Origin: an uncultured Elusimicrobia bacterium
GTDB taxonomy: Bacteria; Elusimicrobiota; Elusimicrobia; Elusimicrobiales; Elusimicrobiaceae
Reading direction: 5' to 3'
Length of the DNA stretch: 5,066 bases
Assembly: GCA_947164805.1 (NCBI GenBank)
Contig: CAMUXX010000079.1
Span: 1-5,066, forward strand
Shown: positions 103 through 5,066 of the stretch, piece by piece
Layout of the letters: each line of letters begins with the position of its first letter
Position numbering within the stretch: position 1 is the first letter of the stretch
Made by a program: the position numbers and the translations under genes
Notes under the pieces: model-generated
The model's database searches: none
What the model saw: the letters and a program-made list of their open reading frames with translations, nothing else
What the model was told of the DNA's origin: nothing

Positions 103-369
103 CTATTTTGCACTTGTGTTGCTCGTCTTGTTGCCGATTACGGCGCGAAGGCCAAAAAGCCCGAGCCCTTCAAGTAAATGCAAAGTAGCGTCATTAGAGG
201 CTATATTTTTGCACCACATAATCAAATCAGTAAGCCCGTTAAAAGATATAAGTTGTTCAATATAAGTTAACAAGGCTTGCAAAATTATTATGGTTGCCGC
301 TAAATAAACTTTTTTGTTTTTTAAAAATTCTTTTGCTTTTTTTACAAAATTTATTATTTTATTTATCAT
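103..369 (-). CDS. Small holin-like membrane protein
   Basis: This encodes 88 residues from ATG at 369 (AGGAG 5 nt upstream), overlapping the previous gene by 11 bases, to TAG at 105-103. The N-terminus is lysine-rich (KIINFVKKAKEFLKNKK). A membrane helix follows at residues ~21-41 (VYLAATIIILQALLTYIEQL), then a polar segment, then a second hydrophobic or amphipathic stretch at 61-78 (LHLLEGLGLFGLRAVIG). This layout resembles short phage proteins encoded near the lysis genes that have one membrane segment followed by a glycine-rich helix and are often labelled holin. A holin would form inner-membrane lesions that release or activate an endolysin. No endolysin is visible here, but it could lie just beyond the left edge. 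The role is inferred from size, topology and place. Confidence 0.6.
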   Translation of the reverse strand: MINKIINFVKKAKEFLKNKKVYLAATIIILQALLTYIEQLISFNGLTDLIMWCKNIASNDATLHLLEGLGLFGLRAVIGNKTSNTSAK

Positions 370-640
370 TATTACTCCTAAGTAAAATATTTTTTATTAT
401 TTTTGTATCTTGTGAGATTAGATTAACTTCCCCCTCCATTTTGCTTTGGCGTGCAGCGAAAATATGCAAGGTTTCTTCCACTTTATCCAAGCGTTTTGGG
501 GTTTTTAAAGTTGCAGAAAACCATAAAATAAAAGAAAGCAAAGCTGCCAAAATAAAAATCAAATTTTTAATAGTTAAACTGATTTTAAAAATTAGGGGCA
601 AGGTATTTGTTATTTGTTTTGAAGTCAAAACAGTTTGCAT
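359..640 (-). CDS. Small membrane-anchored coiled-coil protein (lysis or tail-accessory)
   Basis: This encodes 93 residues from ATG at 640, one base after the hub stop, with GGAGG 6 nt upstream. It ends at TAA 361-359, inside the next gene. Residues ~26-44 (NLIFILAALLSFILWFSATL region) form one membrane helix. Residues 51-86 carry an uninterrupted heptad pattern with a/d positions L51, V54, L58, F61, Q65, M68, V72, I75, T79, I82 and L86, so a coiled-coil dimer or trimer is likely. The LDKVEETLHIF...MEGEV segment recalls XhlA- and i-spanin-type phage proteins, although XhlA places its helix at the C-terminus. Position after the tail genes and before a holin-like gene suggests the lysis module. 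The family is not recognised with certainty. Confidence 0.7.
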   Translation of the reverse strand: MQTVLTSKQITNTLPLIFKISLTIKNLIFILAALLSFILWFSATLKTPKRLDKVEETLHIFAARQSKMEGEVNLISQDTKIIKNILLRSNNDK

Positions 641-641
641 T

Positions 642-2993
642 TTAAACCTCCGTCAAATCAAGCCTTAGTTGCCAATTTGTAAGGTCAAATTCTAAACCTT
701 CCACTTCGGCGGTAACTGTTAAAAACGGTGCATAATTTATTTGCAGAATATCACCAAGTTCAATTTGGGGCAAAAATTTGCATATTAAGGCTATGCGTTG
801 TTTTTTTATACAGGCCCGTGCATAAATATCCGGTGCTGCGGCACGTGCCAAATTGGCATTTTGGGCAGGTAAAAATGCAGAACTTAAAGTAAGTTCTTTA
901 ACACCGTATTTGTCAATAATATTCGGGCGTTCTTCGTTTAAGATAAACGGATCTACCTGGTAGGCAAATTCTCCGAATTGTACTTTAACACTTGTATAAA
1001 GTTTATTTAGGCCTGAATCTAAACTTTCAAGGGATATAATATCTTTTGTTTCTAAAGTGAGGCACGGTGTCGTGTTTAAAGAACGGTTTAAAAATAGGAA
1101 TTTGCCGTTACTGTCAAAACCTATCTGATAACCGCTTAAAGTTGCAAGTTCCTTCATGACATCTAAGCAGGACATATCTTTCGTTTGGACTATTGCAATA
1201 TTAACACCGCTTACTTCCCAAGTTAGAATAAAACTGCTTAAAACGGGGCTTTGGGTTTGGGTGGTGTTGCTATGTGCTTCCCATTTAAGTTGGGCACAGT
1301 TTTTAGCGGAAGTTATGCTTTGGTTATTGCTTATATTTTCCCAGTCAGACCAAGTGTCCTCATCTTCATTTTTAAAACGCATATAAAAGTTTGCGCTGCC
1401 GTTATTTAAGGTTTGTTGGAAGGTTAGTTTGCCCCAATTTTTAAAATTTGTACCGGTTTGTATTACCGGGCTTAAATAAGTGCCGTTTGGGCTTAAAGTG
1501 CCACTGCCTGTACTGACAAGAGGGCTTGTTTGATAATTGTAAACATTATTCCCCCCATAACCCTTCATTCTGAAAAATTGGTAATTTGACGTCGTGTAAG
1601 TGTTATCTTGACAGGTTCCGCCTATTACACTTGCCCAACTGCTTCCGCTTGTTATATTTTTAAACCATATTTGAAAAGTACCGTTAAAATCCCTGGTTAT
1701 ACGATATCTAAAGCGCAGCATATTGCGCGCAGTTTGATAATACCATTGTTTTATTAATGTTTCCTGCCCGTTAGTTATACGGCTAAGATTAAAATAGATA
1801 TAATCATAACTATATTCAAAAGATAATACATATCCGTTTGTGTTCGCTAAATTATCTGAAGAAGAAATAAAATAATTATATTGGAAAATGTCATCTTCAT
1901 CTGCGGCTGAAACTTCCGCTTCCCATGTGCCGTAAGCCTGGTTAGCAGTAGCGCGGAAAATGGCTTCGCGGCCTATTGGCATCATCTGAGGGCCTATAAC
2001 CAAAATTGAGGAAGGTGTTATTGTTATTGTTTGGTTATTTGGGGCAGATACAGTAGTCCACGTATAATCTGTATCTTTTAAAAAGTTATCTTCAAGTTCT
2101 AGGGTATTATTATTTACTTGTAAAGCATTTAAAGTGCCTTCGTTAAAATCATTATAGGTTGGGCAGTTGTAATTTGCTTCAATGGTAGAGGAATAAAATA
2201 CCGGGTCAATTTGCCTTGAAGGTGCAGCACAAATATCAGCGATTTCCCCTGCAATCCACTCACATGTTTTATCGGTATAATAGTAACGGTATGTACACCA
2301 TAAAGTATCTGTTCGCGGTAAATCAGTATTTAATTTAATTGTGGCAGGTTGTTTATACTGGCTTAAATCGGAAACAGTATAGTCATTTTGCGCTTTTAAA
2401 AGTGTGGCATTTTCAAAGCCGTCTTGGGTAGCACCTTGGTATACGGCAACAATTTCGCTCACGGCATTATTTTGAGTGGTAAATTTTCTAGTTGGGTTAT
2501 CTTGCGTAGGGGTTAAAGTTTCAATTTCCACTGTTTGGGTTAAATCTTTTGCGCTGAAAGTATCAAGCAAAGCAAGCTGCCCCGTAAGGGATAAATTCAA
2601 AGTCCGGTTTTCTTTATCATAAATAGGGCCTTCCAAAACAAAACCTTGGAAGATTTTTACTTCTTCATTATTACTGTCGGCTATGGTTTTTGCACTAGTA
2701 TAAACTTCAATTTTAGCACCTGCCCAAAAAGTGTTTGTTTCATCAAAAGAATTATTTTGATTGCCTAAAGTTAAATTTAAGACTGCATTATTCCAAACTG
2801 AATAACCCTCATTATCCAATTTCCACTTTATTTTTGAATTTTCCAAAATATATTTTGTTATATCTTGGGGATTAGAAAATGTATAGGTTTCAGTTTCAGA
2901 TTGCCAGGTGCGCGTATATAATAAAAATTTTTTTGTGTATACCGGTGCTTGGTTGTTTAAGGCTGAAATTAAGGATTGGGAAAGTGTTTTCAT
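642..2993 (-). CDS. Tail hub / tip protein with inserted lectin-like domains
   Basis: This encodes 783 residues from ATG at 2993, one base after the previous stop, with GAGA 6 nt upstream. A TTG at 3005 would add four residues but has no ribosome binding site. It ends at TAA 644-642. Residues 1-150 form a hub-like N-terminus (KWKLDNEGYSVWNNAVLNLTL, then FQGFVLEGPIYDKENRTLNL). Residues ~320-490 look like a concanavalin/LamG-type sandwich rich in Tyr, Asn and Trp (YGTWEAEVSAADEDDIFQYN, NGYVLSFEYSYDYIYFNLSR). Residues ~500-595 form a second sandwich (NGTYLSPVIQTGTNFKNWGK, then YMRFKNEDEDTWSDW and SPVLSSFILTWEVSG), a pattern common in tail fibre and spike modules. Residues ~598-783 return to a tail-protein fold (CLDVMKELATLSGYQIGFDS, then IELGDILQINYAPFLTV). 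I infer a tail-tip hub that also binds the host surface. No peptidase or depolymerase motif is visible. Confidence 0.7.
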   Translation of the reverse strand: MKTLSQSLISALNNQAPVYTKKFLLYTRTWQSETETYTFSNPQDITKYILENSKIKWKLDNEGYSVWNNAVLNLTLGNQNNSFDETNTFWAGAKIEVYTSAKTIADSNNEEVKIFQGFVLEGPIYDKENRTLNLSLTGQLALLDTFSAKDLTQTVEIETLTPTQDNPTRKFTTQNNAVSEIVAVYQGATQDGFENATLLKAQNDYTVSDLSQYKQPATIKLNTDLPRTDTLWCTYRYYYTDKTCEWIAGEIADICAAPSRQIDPVFYSSTIEANYNCPTYNDFNEGTLNALQVNNNTLELEDNFLKDTDYTWTTVSAPNNQTITITPSSILVIGPQMMPIGREAIFRATANQAYGTWEAEVSAADEDDIFQYNYFISSSDNLANTNGYVLSFEYSYDYIYFNLSRITNGQETLIKQWYYQTARNMLRFRYRITRDFNGTFQIWFKNITSGSSWASVIGGTCQDNTYTTSNYQFFRMKGYGGNNVYNYQTSPLVSTGSGTLSPNGTYLSPVIQTGTNFKNWGKLTFQQTLNNGSANFYMRFKNEDEDTWSDWENISNNQSITSAKNCAQLKWEAHSNTTQTQSPVLSSFILTWEVSGVNIAIVQTKDMSCLDVMKELATLSGYQIGFDSNGKFLFLNRSLNTTPCLTLETKDIISLESLDSGLNKLYTSVKVQFGEFAYQVDPFILNEERPNIIDKYGVKELTLSSAFLPAQNANLARAAAPDIYARACIKKQRIALICKFLPQIELGDILQINYAPFLTVTAEVEGLEFDLTNWQLRLDLTEV

Positions 2994-2994
2994 A

Positions 2995-3642
2995 TCATTT
3001 CTCAAGTAAATTTAAAGTGGTTTTATATAAGGCGCGCCGTCTGTCTAAATTAAAAAACGGGGCGCGGCTTAAAGCATATTCGCCGGCAATGGTTGTATCA
3101 AAACTGCCGTAAAAAATATAAGTTAAAAAAGTATTATTTTTTAATATATTTTTAAGGTTTTGTTTGAGGCTAGAATTTATATTTTCCATATTTAAAGTGA
3201 GATTAAATTTCGTAAAATCGCGCCATTTAACAAGCATGCCGTTTGCCAAATAATGATGGCCTTCGCGTGCATAAATATTGCCGCTTATATTGCTTAAAAC
3301 TTCGCTTAAATTAAGTAAAGTTTTTGCCGCTATAATTTTACCGATATTTAAAGTGTTTTGATAAGTAAAACTGAGTTTAAGTATCAAAATATTTAAGTCG
3401 GTAGGAAAGGTAAAAATGAAATCTTGTTCACAACTTTCCACAGTAGCGATAATTGTGGAAAAATCATCTTCCAAAGAAGTTTTATATTCTATTGTAAGTG
3501 TGCTTAAATTGCTGTTTTTTATGATAATTTTATTTATTTGCGTTAATTCGGGAAATGTATAAATTTTTGTATTTGAAATTTCTTCCAAAACGGCATTTTC
3601 AAGCAAATTCGGGGTTAAAATTTCTATGCAAGCAATACTCAT
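2995..3642 (-). CDS. Distal-tail-like structural protein
   Basis: This encodes 215 residues from ATG at 3642, with a strong GGGGAGG 7 nt upstream and an ATGA overlap with the tape measure end. It ends at TGA 2997-2995. Residues 1-105 alternate beta strands (KIYTFPELTQINKIIIKNSN, LTIEYKTSLEDDF, NILILKLSF) like a jelly-roll or discoidin-like sandwich. Residues 120-215 (GNIYAREGHHYLANGMLVKW, FTKFNLTLNMENI, LTYIFYG, then RAPFFNLDRRRALYKTTLNL) recall the second half of distal tail proteins. There a strand motif is followed by a 'replace/insert length' loop and a final strand. Its place between tape measure and hub genes supports a ring at the tail tip joining tube and hub. I see no diagnostic family signature. 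A minor tail protein of another class is possible. Confidence 0.6.
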   Translation of the reverse strand: MSIACIEILTPNLLENAVLEEISNTKIYTFPELTQINKIIIKNSNLSTLTIEYKTSLEDDFSTIIATVESCEQDFIFTFPTDLNILILKLSFTYQNTLNIGKIIAAKTLLNLSEVLSNISGNIYAREGHHYLANGMLVKWRDFTKFNLTLNMENINSSLKQNLKNILKNNTFLTYIFYGSFDTTIAGEYALSRAPFFNLDRRRALYKTTLNLLEK

Positions 3643-3893
3643 AAAGAAACCTCCCCGCTGCGTTGTTTGCCTATTTTATATGATATTTTTGCTTGTTCTA
3701 CTGCCCAACTTACGCCGCGGCGTGTAGCGGAGGCAATTTCCTCGCAAATTTCCCTTGCATTTATTGGGGAATCTTGGTTTGCATTAATTGTTATGGGGCT
3801 GTTTAAAGTGATATTTATTACGCTTTCCCCGGCATTATTTTGTGTGTTTGGGGCAGGGGTATTTTGTATGCTGTCCACAATTTCAGGCGGCAA
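3639..3893 (-). CDS. Tape measure protein C-terminal segment (downstream of the in-frame stop)
   Basis: This is 84 residues if it starts at TTG 3893, which lies seven bases after the TAA that ends the upstream tape measure part and is in the same frame. The two bypassed codons would be Phe-Val. The protein starts PPEIVDSIQNTP and has a low-complexity Asn/Pro/Thr linker. It continues VINITLNSPITINANQDSPI, a beta-strand pair typical of tape measure C-termini (VNVTINxPI). It ends in a helix with AREICEEIASATRRGVSWAVEQAK, like the usual AxxIxxAxxRGVxxA tail-tip helix. TGA at 3641-3639 overlaps the next ATG. It may be made by reinitiation, by stop readthrough as part of a protein of about 230 residues, or not at all if the gene is broken. 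The TTG start is uncertain. Confidence 0.65.
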   Translation of the reverse strand: MPPEIVDSIQNTPAPNTQNNAGESVINITLNSPITINANQDSPINAREICEEIASATRRGVSWAVEQAKISYKIGKQRSGEVSL

Positions 3894-3899
3894 AACAAA

Positions 3900-3902
3900 T
3901 TA
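3900..3902 (-). other. In-frame TAA interrupting the tape measure reading frame
   Basis: The minus strand reads CAT GAG GGA TAA TTT GTT TTG CCG CCT GAA, that is HEG-stop-FVLPPE. The frame is the same on both sides, so one base change (TAA to GAA) would restore the family motif HEGEFVLPPE. TAA ends other genes here cleanly (4918, 642, 359), so general reassignment of TAA to an amino acid is unlikely. GAGGGA just before the stop could act as a weak ribosome binding site for TTG at 3893. Confidence 0.9.
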
Positions 3903-4334
3903 TCCCTCATGCAGATAATAAGGGCCTGTTTTATTTATCGGGCCTCCGCTTCTTCGGCTGCCTAGCAATCCCCCAAAAAATGAAGTCCCGCCGGATATGC
4001 TACCAAATAAAGCATTTGTTGCAAAATTACTGAAGGCAGACAAAGCCGAATTTGTTATTGAGGAAAACACTTGTTTTGAAAGATTTTCCATATCCAAAAA
4101 ATTTTTGGAAGTTACGTCAAAAAAACTGCCAAATGCTGCTAAAGAACCAGCACTTGCTTTAGAGGAATAACCTTCAAATAATGAAGCAAAATTTGAACCT
4201 TTATCCTCTAAATTTTTAAAATAAGTATTAAAAGAATTTTCACTTTGCGTTAATTTATTTTGTGCGGCATCAAAGCCGGCAGGGTCAAACAAAGTGGAAA
4301 GTTCTATAAAAAATGAATTTGCATTATCGTTCAT
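3900..4334 (-). CDS. Short tail tape measure protein, upstream part ending at an in-frame TAA
   Basis: This encodes 144 residues from ATG at 4334 (AGGA 8 nt upstream, start overlapping the chaperone extension stop) to TAA at 3902-3900. The N-terminal half is helical and rich in Asn, Ser and Phe (FDAAQNKLTQSENSFNTYF). Residues 55-125 are Ala/Ser/Gly/Phe-rich with hydrophobic stretches (ALSAFSNFATNALF, SFFGGLLG). It ends RRSGGPINKTGPYYLHEG. This ending matches the C-terminal signature of many tape measure proteins, where GG-x-I/V-x-x-TG-x-Y-x-L-H-x-G is followed by E-Y/F-V-L-P. Here the codon after HEG is TAA, and the same frame goes on with FVLPPEIV. A tape measure sets tail length and is threaded through the tube lumen. 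This product alone would lack the C-terminal tip segment. Confidence 0.75.
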   Translation of the reverse strand: MNDNANSFFIELSTLFDPAGFDAAQNKLTQSENSFNTYFKNLEDKGSNFASLFEGYSSKASAGSLAAFGSFFDVTSKNFLDMENLSKQVFSSITNSALSAFSNFATNALFGSISGGTSFFGGLLGSRRSGGPINKTGPYYLHEG

Positions 4335-4558
4335 TTGCTTATTCCTATAAGGGATAATTGGCCGTCGCTGTCTAAAGGTAAAGTTTGTTTGTGCCCTTTT
4401 GTAGCGTAGCGGCAGGCCTCAAGAAGCCACAATGGGCTTTGGGCCAAAATATAATCTGTGGTAAGACCGTAAAAAGACGCCGTAAAAAATATTGCGCTGG
4501 AAAGTGCGTCTAATTGTTTATTGCTTTCAGCGCTGCCCGAAAATTTAGCATTATTTGC
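4331..4558 (-). CDS. -1 frame extension of the tail assembly chaperone (T-like part of a GT-type fusion)
   Basis: The minus strand is open in the -1 phase relative to the chaperone from 4558 (after TAA at 4561-4559) to TGA at 4333-4331. There is no ATG, GTG or TTG in its early part, so it is probably reached only by ribosomes that slip inside the chaperone gene. Slippage after TTT at 4542-4540 would join 116 chaperone residues to 69 new ones, beginning SGSAESNKQLDALSSAIFF and ending QLSLIGISK, about 185 residues in total. The segment GLTTDYILAQSPLWLLEA resembles the short helical T domains that recruit tape measure protein in frameshifted chaperones. Its TGA overlaps the tape measure ATG (ATGA), implying translational coupling. 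A low ratio of fusion to short form is expected from the lambda system. Confidence 0.85.
   Translation of the reverse strand, partial: ANNAKFSGSAESNKQLDALSSAIFFTASFYGLTTDYILAQSPLWLLEACRYATKGHKQTLPLDSDGQLSLIGISK
4475..4546 (-). promoter_or_regulatory. -1 programmed ribosomal frameshift signal: slippery heptamer plus stem or pseudoknot
   Basis: In the chaperone frame the minus strand reads CTA AAT TTT CGG, giving the heptamer A AAT TTT at 4546-4540, which fits X XXY YYZ. A 6-nt spacer (CGGGCA) follows. Then GCGCTGAAAG (4533-4524) pairs with CTTTCCAGCGC (4504-4494) as 6 + 4 base pairs with one bulged C. The 19-nt loop contains AGACGC (4511-4506), which can pair with GCGTCT at 4480-4475. That would give an H-type pseudoknot with linkers of about 12, 1 and 13 nt. 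Spacer length and geometry match known -1 frameshift elements. The stem is seen directly. The pseudoknot is an inference from complementarity only. Confidence 0.8.
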
Positions 4559-4917: not shown

Positions 4918-5066
4918 TTATGCGGCTGAAGTGTCTACAATTTGCCCGAAGCGTTTTGCCTGGGCTTTTGATGTATCTGCCATTACGTCAAATTCCACTT
5001 CAATTAAAGTTTCACCGTCGCGTTTATAACTTTGTGCGGTTTTGCCGTTTGGGCGGCATTTCCAAA
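4918..5066 (-). CDS. Probable major tail (tail tube) protein, C-terminal fragment
   Basis: This is the 3' end of a gene whose start lies beyond the right edge. The minus strand is open from the edge to TAA at 4920-4918 and encodes 48 residues, beginning WKCRPNGKTAQSYKRDGE and ending IVDTSAA. The stretch is hydrophilic and beta-like (GETLIEVEFDVMAD), as in many tail tube and minor structural proteins. The identification rests mainly on position: it lies directly upstream of a tail assembly chaperone with a frameshift extension and a tape measure gene, the slot of the major tail protein in siphophages. It would form the hexameric rings of the tail tube. No motif in this fragment proves it, and another small virion protein is possible. 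It is missing from simple ORF listings because it has no start codon in the window. Confidence 0.6.
   Translation of the reverse strand, partial: WKCRPNGKTAQSYKRDGETLIEVEFDVMADTSKAQAKRFGQIVDTSAA

Follow-up and report, generated by a model that had tools for sequence, protein, structure and literature searches.

Gene content of the locus

The window analysed here, a stretch of 5,066 nucleotides, is a whole contig of a 1.07-Mb assembly with a completeness of 80%. It belongs to the family Elusimicrobiaceae, to which its relatives, several of them of rumen origin, are also assigned where their records name them. The genes follow each other on the minus strand as the end of a probable tail-tube gene, the tail assembly chaperone (TAC), the tape measure, two larger proteins and two small ones (Table 1). 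This order of tail tube, chaperone, overlapping frame and tape measure is that of the lambda/HK97-type TACs with −1 frameshifting.

Table 1. Features of the window, with their coordinates and the basis of each assignment
Feature	Position	Strand	Basis
Gene upstream of the TAC, 3' end; by position major tail (tube) protein	4918..5064	-	ORF open at contig end
Tail assembly chaperone (TAC), zero frame, 125 aa	4510..4887	-	ATG 4887, stop TAG 4512-4510
Slippery heptamer A_AAT_TTT, in phase	4540..4546	-	Sequence; kept in relatives
6-nt spacer	4534..4539	-	Sequence and alignment A5
Stem 1 (S1), 5' arm	4524..4533	-	Covariation, codon-preserving null, minimum-energy fold downstream of heptamer
Stem 1, 3' arm, one bulged base at 4499	4494..4504	-	Covariation, codon-preserving null, fold
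Stem 2 (S2, pseudoknot), 5' arm, inside stem 1 loop, overlaps zero-frame stop	4506..4511	-	Covariation, codon-preserving null
Stem 2, 3' arm	4475..4480	-	Covariation, codon-preserving null
−1 frame extension, 69 codons and TGA	4331..4540	-	Open frame of 69-87 codons in 18/18 counted, window included
Short tape measure protein, 5' part, 144 aa, ended by in-frame TAA	3900..4334	-	PHROG tape-measure match, E 0.003
Tape measure frame, remaining 3' part, 84 aa, frame unchanged	3639..3893	-	ORF analysis and relatives
Tail-region protein, 215 aa, family F02	2995..3642	-	F02 in 19/21 regions, window and prophage L065 counted
Large tail-tip candidate, 784 aa, family F00	645..2996	-	F00 in 20/21 regions; role inferred from position
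Small protein, 93 aa; relatives have family F10 here	359..640	-	ORF list, gene order
Small protein, 88 aa, family F08, holin-like by position only	103..369	-	ORF list, region comparison

The TAC protein matched phrog_1442 (tail assembly chaperone, E 8.2e-08) and had no match in Pfam and NCBIfam. A search for its homologues returned 85 proteins, and among the matches listed with an organism name all came from Elusimicrobia; the homologue in E. minutum Pei191 is Emin_1080. The end of the tube gene gave weak PHROG matches to an Ig-domain protein (E 0.019) and a major tail protein (E 0.069). In relatives, the tail-tube family F01 sits upstream of the TAC, and its E. minutum member was also matched. 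The F02 protein had no match in the protein-family searches, PHROG included, and the large tail-tip candidate had none in the family searches.

In the window, the tape measure frame is interrupted by a TAA at 3900-3902; the frame of the four closest relatives runs uninterrupted over 231 aa. This stop is either a real inactivation in the strain or an assembly error. The rpoB gene of the same assembly is split over two frames, with open frames of 1097 and 259 aa (L226, G000:C1:6500-13000), and for this reason a consensus error at the tape-measure stop is possible, if unproven.

Slippery sequence and −1 frame

An earlier, sequence-only reading of this DNA had proposed an in-phase A_AAT_TTT heptamer in the chaperone gene, which is borne out by its position at 4546-4540 of the minus strand within the codons CTA AAT TTT. 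A first TAC search yielded 19 loci including the window, 18 of them with a complete TAC, and 17 of these carried A_AAT_TTT or A_AAT_TTC in phase; the TAC of locus G004 is cut off by a contig end and was not counted as complete. With genome G105 added, A_AAT_TTY is found at the corresponding place in 18 of 19 complete TAC genes, window included (AAATTTT in 13, AAATTTC in 5), and the TAC of genome G019 has G_GAT_TTT instead. The codon preceding Asn-Phe encodes L, A, V, E or I, with A as its third base in all 18. Because the residue varies and the third base does not, the nucleotides of the heptamer are kept even where the residue is free. In an E. coli motif survey, H_HH.U_UU.Y belongs to the heptamers of highest efficiency (PMC4066793), and the pyrimidine observed at the last place fits this pattern, so that the AAATTTT site is less unusual than it had been taken to be.

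The −1 frame opens 12 nt upstream of the heptamer in the window, 12-21 nt upstream in 17 of the 18 TACs and 132 nt upstream in the remaining one; an opening this close to the heptamer bounds the place of the shift. As described before, the extension comprises 69 codons and its TGA overlaps the ATG of the tape measure (ATGA). The accompanying claim that it lacks a start codon holds for ATG and GTG only, since TTG occurs as its 32nd and 37th codons. The two frames predict a fusion of 116 + 69 = 185 aa, the size that had been estimated at about 185 residues. The −1 peptide is conserved in a protein alignment (n=7).

A predicted pseudoknot downstream of the heptamer

Two helices can be drawn downstream of the spacer. 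Stem 1 pairs GCGCTGAAAG with CTTTC-C-AGCGC over 10 bp with one bulged C, and is the bulged stem that had been placed 6 nt behind the heptamer. Stem 2 pairs the loop bases AGACGC with GCGTCT over 6 bp at the site where this complementarity had been pointed out, and the zero-frame stop lies across the start of its 5' arm.

Conservation of the helices was assessed on an alignment (A5) of 18 sequences with hardly any gaps, from which G019, with its other heptamer, and the contig-cut G004 were excluded before counting. Over both stems 88.2% of 306 cells are paired, compared with 31-55% when partners are slid by 1-3 columns; the sequences share kinship, and the cells are thus not independent events. 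Changes on both sides of a pair were seen in 13 cells, against 4.5 +/- 1.7 in shuffles (0/500 as high), and the covariation score was 0.235 against 0.163 (0/500). The number of pairs changed on both sides (5 vs 3.4, 88/500) and that of extra pair types (95/500) were not exceptional. Stem 2 alone is 91.7% paired, with 7 double-changed cells against 1.3 and a score of 0.248 against 0.105 (0/500 shuffles for both); on pairs changed on both sides and on extra pair types, the two weaker measures, 141/500 and 110/500 shuffles were as high.

Because the stem arms are coding, the synonymous codons of the −1 frame were in addition redrawn 2000 times with the −1 peptide kept. Each stem pairs better than in all 2000 redraws, with 167 of 180 cells for stem 1 (best of two bulge registers) against 106.2 +/- 6.4 and a maximum of 129, and 99 of 108 for stem 2 against 67.9 +/- 5.0 and a maximum of 82. 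With 8 divergent representatives the counts were 74 and 44 against maxima of 63 and 40. The bulge of stem 1 has a different position in some relatives. Stem 1 forms 8 of its 10 pairs in three rows of the E. minutum group and in L015, and stem 2 forms 4 of 6 in L006 and L013.

A pseudoknot-free fold that included the heptamer gave another hairpin in place of stem 1, with a z-score of +0.50 and 138/200 shuffles at least as good. When the bases of the heptamer, over which the ribosome would sit, are excluded, the minimum-energy structure of the window is stem 1 at -11.3 kcal/mol. RNAalifold, a method that cannot show pseudoknots, recovered part of stem 1 only on A5, and a search of Rfam gave no match up to E 1. 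Among five close genomes, the first 330 nt of the TAC ORF contain 6-16 variable sites per 30 nt and nt 331-420, which hold the slip site and the pseudoknot, contain 2-5, a reduction due in part to the overlapping frames.

A chance stem is ruled out by pairing and covariation above those of shuffles, slid partners and codon redraws. The compensatory changes among relatives, for which the sequence-only reading had suggested looking in both stems, back two crossing stems downstream of the heptamer, as predicted for an H-type frameshift pseudoknot. Homologues that lack heptamer or stems, or that give the −1 part a start of its own, would have spoken against the sequence-only reading, and this check favoured it. 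Together with the PHROG match, the conserved slip site and the covariation, this upholds the earlier proposal of a lambda-type TAC −1 cassette with an H-type pseudoknot. At the level of sequence we regard the predicted cassette in the window as confirmed, and it is likely that slippery sequence and predicted pseudoknot make some ribosomes change reading frame.

Prophage-type chaperones of the family

Weak TAC matches within the family led to six more TACs (L039-L044), which are of prophage type. Five of them have a portal gene within about 8 kb on the same contig, and the contig of L043 is without one. All six carry A_AAT_TTT. At equal spacing their stem 1 is paired in 91.0% of 78 cells with a score of 0.359 against 0.183 (0/500); on pair types 81/500 shuffles were as high. 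Second helices were taken as the best that could be found per TAC, and a crossing one is convincing in L039, L040, L041 and L044 (6-11 bp, with other sequences). The second stem of L042 (1620-1725) and L043 (1758-1863) is either weak or shifted to a different register, which sets these two apart from L040 and L044 (8-11 bp). L045, from another family of the order (G154), was left out of this set, as no A_AAT_TTT was seen at the corresponding place. Since the prophage-type TACs share the signal, the predicted pseudoknot signal probably goes back to the ancestor of this phage lineage.

One prophage of the family was mapped (L065, G006:C2), and differs in that TerL, portal, capsid and tail genes form a single block and the tape measure has 670 aa.

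A gene set scattered over the chromosome

We compared 21 regions, that is, 20 fetched ones and the window; L065 is the prophage, and in the GC-rich L057 and L059 genes were missed by the ORF caller. In the other regions the genes run in the order capsid, connectors, tail tube, TAC, short tape measure, two larger proteins and small proteins, followed by host-type genes; they were named on the basis of E. minutum matches. The window's copy of the 93-aa small protein was masked in this comparison by a longer spurious ORF. Tape measures that were called in full (16 regions) measure 218-282 aa. In 8 regions of genera g1 and g2, feoB (assigned by Pfam in E. minutum) adjoins the tail end, which argues that the site of the cluster is inherited.

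Portal and terminase were found at other sites. In E. minutum the portal lies at 771 kb, TerL at 937 kb and the capsid-tail cluster at 1,170-1,178 kb, with Pfam matches for capsid (PF05065, 5.6e-45), portal (PF04860), prohead protease (PF04586) and TerL (PF04466); the terminase carries ATPase and nuclease domain matches. Among the TAC-bearing genomes, 20/20 have a portal and 20/20 a terminase (profile A6; partial at a contig end in G019). The terminase family PF03354 was tried and rejected as the wrong one, as it matches in 4/20 genomes, 3 of them over the cut-off. A protease gene adjoins the portal in 16 of the 17 portal regions examined, 5 of which also hold terminase and a small gene. The terminase of 13 genomes occupies a third locus, and in 11 of these 13 a small gene lies upstream of it; by position only, this gene is a candidate TerS, and a Pfam search of it gave no match.

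Capsid-tail cluster, portal and terminase occupy two or three separate sites in 19 of 20 genomes, and in G005, G006, G009, G013, G020 and G021 one contig holds both terminase and portal but not the tail cluster. In G019 (L059, G019:C137; genus g3), portal, terminase and tail genes stand together on one 9.6-kb contig. This arrangement in genus g3 possibly represents an ancestral one-cluster state, and later scattering is suggested by the genomes that keep terminase and portal, or in G019 everything, on one contig.

The three parts co-occur in the identical 20 of 90 genomes of the family, spread over five genera, by the criteria of a TAC at E 3e-21 or better, a terminase over 600 bits (plus that of G019) and matching portals. 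This set, which resembles that of a gene transfer agent (GTA), is present in single copy per genome. The genomes G006 (L065) and G017 (C39) carry it along with a separate terminase, portal and TAC, and these additional copies are of prophage type. An ordinary prophage was ruled out as an explanation of the set, because in g1 and g2 portal and terminase lie away from the tail cluster, yet all 20 genomes hold one GTA-type copy.

The largest other genus, g6 (66 genomes), is without the GTA-like set; it has other terminases only (at most 381 bits), a few portals, two of them strong, and occasional prophage-type matches. Outside the family, one weak TAC match was obtained among the 340 genomes of the phylum. 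In viral contigs, a pattern-limited search put the nearest terminase at 53% identity. Identity to phage records is under 60%, with 38% as the best among the matches listed, to 'PBSX family' terminases. No TAC relative was found in phage records, in viral contigs with a single-protein query, or, at E up to 0.1, among the 80-400 aa ORFs of 53 viral loci with related terminases; many of these loci are short and may end before the tail genes.

Inheritance, selection and the nature of the set

When a tree was built from TerL, portal and tail tip, 9 of 10 splits recurred in an rpoB tree, and 10,000 label shuffles gave at most 4 shared splits (mean 0.35). The single conflict has supports of 82 and 72. 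The open frames for the tree were picked by BLAST, and it covers 13 of the 20 genomes, as rpoB was not found in 5 and is in pieces in G000 and G004. The chaperone, which had been read as a phage tail gene, is instead part of a scattered and vertically inherited gene set with one GTA-type copy per genome. Pairwise dN/dS, taken over four or five close genomes, lies at 0.03-0.08 in the genes of terminase, portal, capsid and tube and at 0.06-0.20 in those of TAC, tape measure and tail tip; the gene set is under purifying selection.

With fairly high confidence we posit that these genes represent a domesticated GTA that has kept pseudoknot-stimulated frameshifting in its TAC. According to the published definition, three of six GTA features are found here, namely proteins derived from a Caudoviricete, endogenization over several loci and vertical inheritance with the host. 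The other three would be that the particle packs mostly random host DNA, that head size keeps its own genome from being fully packaged, and that it delivers DNA to other cells (PMC9662315); as regards the second of these, the loci of E. minutum are separated by hundreds of kb. The analysis shows sequence, conservation, covariation, separate loci, co-occurrence, purifying selection and tree congruence, and we infer frameshifting and its rate, particle formation, and packaging and transfer of host DNA.

The cassette might also be real within an old, decaying defective prophage that no longer works as a GTA. Replication, integrase and repressor genes were not noticed in the cluster regions, which were inspected without a profile search, the tape measure of the window has its in-frame stop, and 4 of the 18 genomes of the window's genus, 64-86% complete, are without TAC, GTA-type TerL and portal. 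Against decay speak the low dN/dS of seven genes, the uninterrupted tape measures in 16 relatives' regions, the congruence to rpoB, and the fact that 20 genomes from five genera have retained head, packaging and tail genes together despite their separate sites. We consider decay unlikely.

Discussion

Our reading of the set as a domesticated GTA can be framed more fully as follows. It is reasonably likely that the Elusimicrobiaceae possess a GTA of their own, independently domesticated, encoded at up to three distant chromosomal loci and passed down in five genera, in which a pseudoknot-driven −1 frameshift at A_AAU_UUY would build a very short tail, a phage recoding signal thus having long been kept in the chromosome. 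Most ribosomes would produce the 125-aa chaperone (G-like), and a minority may be stalled by the pseudoknot 6 nt past the heptamer, where the Asn and Phe tRNAs would re-pair one base back to give the 185-aa fusion (GT-like). If lambda is a guide, the short tape measure would be covered by G, and GT would bring in the tail tube protein, so that a short tail is built. Capsid, portal and protease of the head, the packaging terminase and the tail proteins, although encoded at separate loci, would then contribute to one particle that packages host DNA.

That the tail is short is implied by tape measures of 218-282 aa against 670 aa in the mapped prophage. In lambda the two products come in a ratio of about 30:1, and on the tape measure one GT is joined by many G (PMC5009743); in a reporter, HK97-like TAC genes reached 6-7% (PMC3711429). 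With a short tape measure, fewer G may be needed per GT; the shift rate would then have to be higher, and a strong pseudoknot could provide for this.

Whether stem 2 takes part can be questioned, since its arms lie within coding sequence and it could be a by-product of the conserved −1 peptide, with stem 1 acting alone. One of its pairs is invariant, two depart only through unpaired cells, and sliding by +2 still leaves 66.7% of cells paired, with 6 double-changed cells. Its pairing nevertheless surpasses every peptide-keeping redraw, compensated changes occur at two pairs (7 cells), and four of the six prophage-type TACs have crossing helices made of other sequences, so that this explanation appears quite unlikely.

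We give little credence to a capsid-tail particle with another job, such as killing or signalling, that carries no DNA between cells. The very short tape measure and the large tail-tip candidate without a family match would suit such a particle, but it would not need the terminase with its ATPase and nuclease matches, the portal and the prohead protease, all of which are retained, terminase and portal under purifying selection.

It is very improbable that there is no frameshift and that ribosomes re-initiating at or near the TAC stop translate the −1 segment as a gene of its own. The −1 frame does overlap this stop, E. minutum has a TTG in the −1 frame just before the heptamer, and GTG occurs in the extension of 4/18 TACs, at the earliest at codon 17. 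However, ATG is absent from the extension in 13/18 and does not occur before codon 37 in the other 5, the −1 frame nearly always opens just upstream of the heptamer, and the heptamer is retained where the residue is free. Transcriptional slippage, to which an A/T-rich heptamer might lend itself, is hardly credible as the source of the fusion, since the longest run is four T, or three in A_AAT_TTC (5/18), which is short for polymerase slippage, and the conserved downstream pseudoknot is a signal of the kind that acts on ribosomes.

For the predicted pseudoknot-stimulated cassette of the proposed GTA, several known systems offer a comparison. The lambda heptamer is G_GGA_AAG; unlike lambda, the cassette described here has A_AAT_TTY with a covarying H-type pseudoknot as the likely stimulator, and its TAC sits in a scattered, vertically inherited gene set. 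With lambda G/GT and HK97-type TACs it has in common the order of tail tube, TAC, −1 extension and tape measure, and with lambda a −1 slip, predicted in our case, shortly before the chaperone ORF ends (PMC5009743). The −1 signals of the IS3 family likewise consist of a bacterial slippage heptamer followed by a pseudoknot, but belong to transposase genes, and 72% of IS1/IS3 heptamers are A_AA.A_AA.G or A_AA.A_AA.A (PMC4066793). In Listeria phage PSA a stimulatory pseudoknot also serves a phage structural gene, there with a +1 shift at a proline codon of the capsid gene (PMC5009743). The prophages of the family itself share the heptamer, a covarying stem 1 and, in four TACs, a convincing stem 2.

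Among GTAs with an established genetic basis, three groups have been classified, from Alphaproteobacteria and Brachyspira. These families, Rhodogtaviriformidae (RcGTA), Bartogtaviriformidae and Brachygtaviriformidae, likewise have phage-derived head-tail genes at several loci and vertical inheritance (PMC9662315). Unlike them, the set described here comes from Elusimicrobiota and has a TerL of Terminase_3 type; it is not filed in any of the three, and the likeness is one by published definition. GTA activity in gut Oscillospiraceae and Ruminococcaceae also concerns gut bacteria outside the classical GTA lineages, and was established from packaged DNA, where our case is built on genes; the main text of that study does not contain 'Elusimicrob' (PMC12946183). 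According to the open-access literature, the DNA-carrying particle predicted from this set is apparently undescribed. A computed frameshift prediction for the TAC gene may exist, because the GeneTack survey covered two Elusimicrobia genomes (PMC3711429).

If our reading is true, a GTA set that is split over loci and co-diversifies with its hosts would add a case in another phylum, the Elusimicrobiota, and would point to a way in which Elusimicrobia of gut and rumen may exchange genes. E. minutum Pei191 is an isolate in which the GTA reading can be tested. The family would moreover offer a natural comparison in which the same frameshift signal serves tape measures of 218-282 aa in the proposed GTA and one of 670 aa in the single mapped prophage, which makes it testable whether tape-measure length sets the ratio of chaperone to fusion that is needed.
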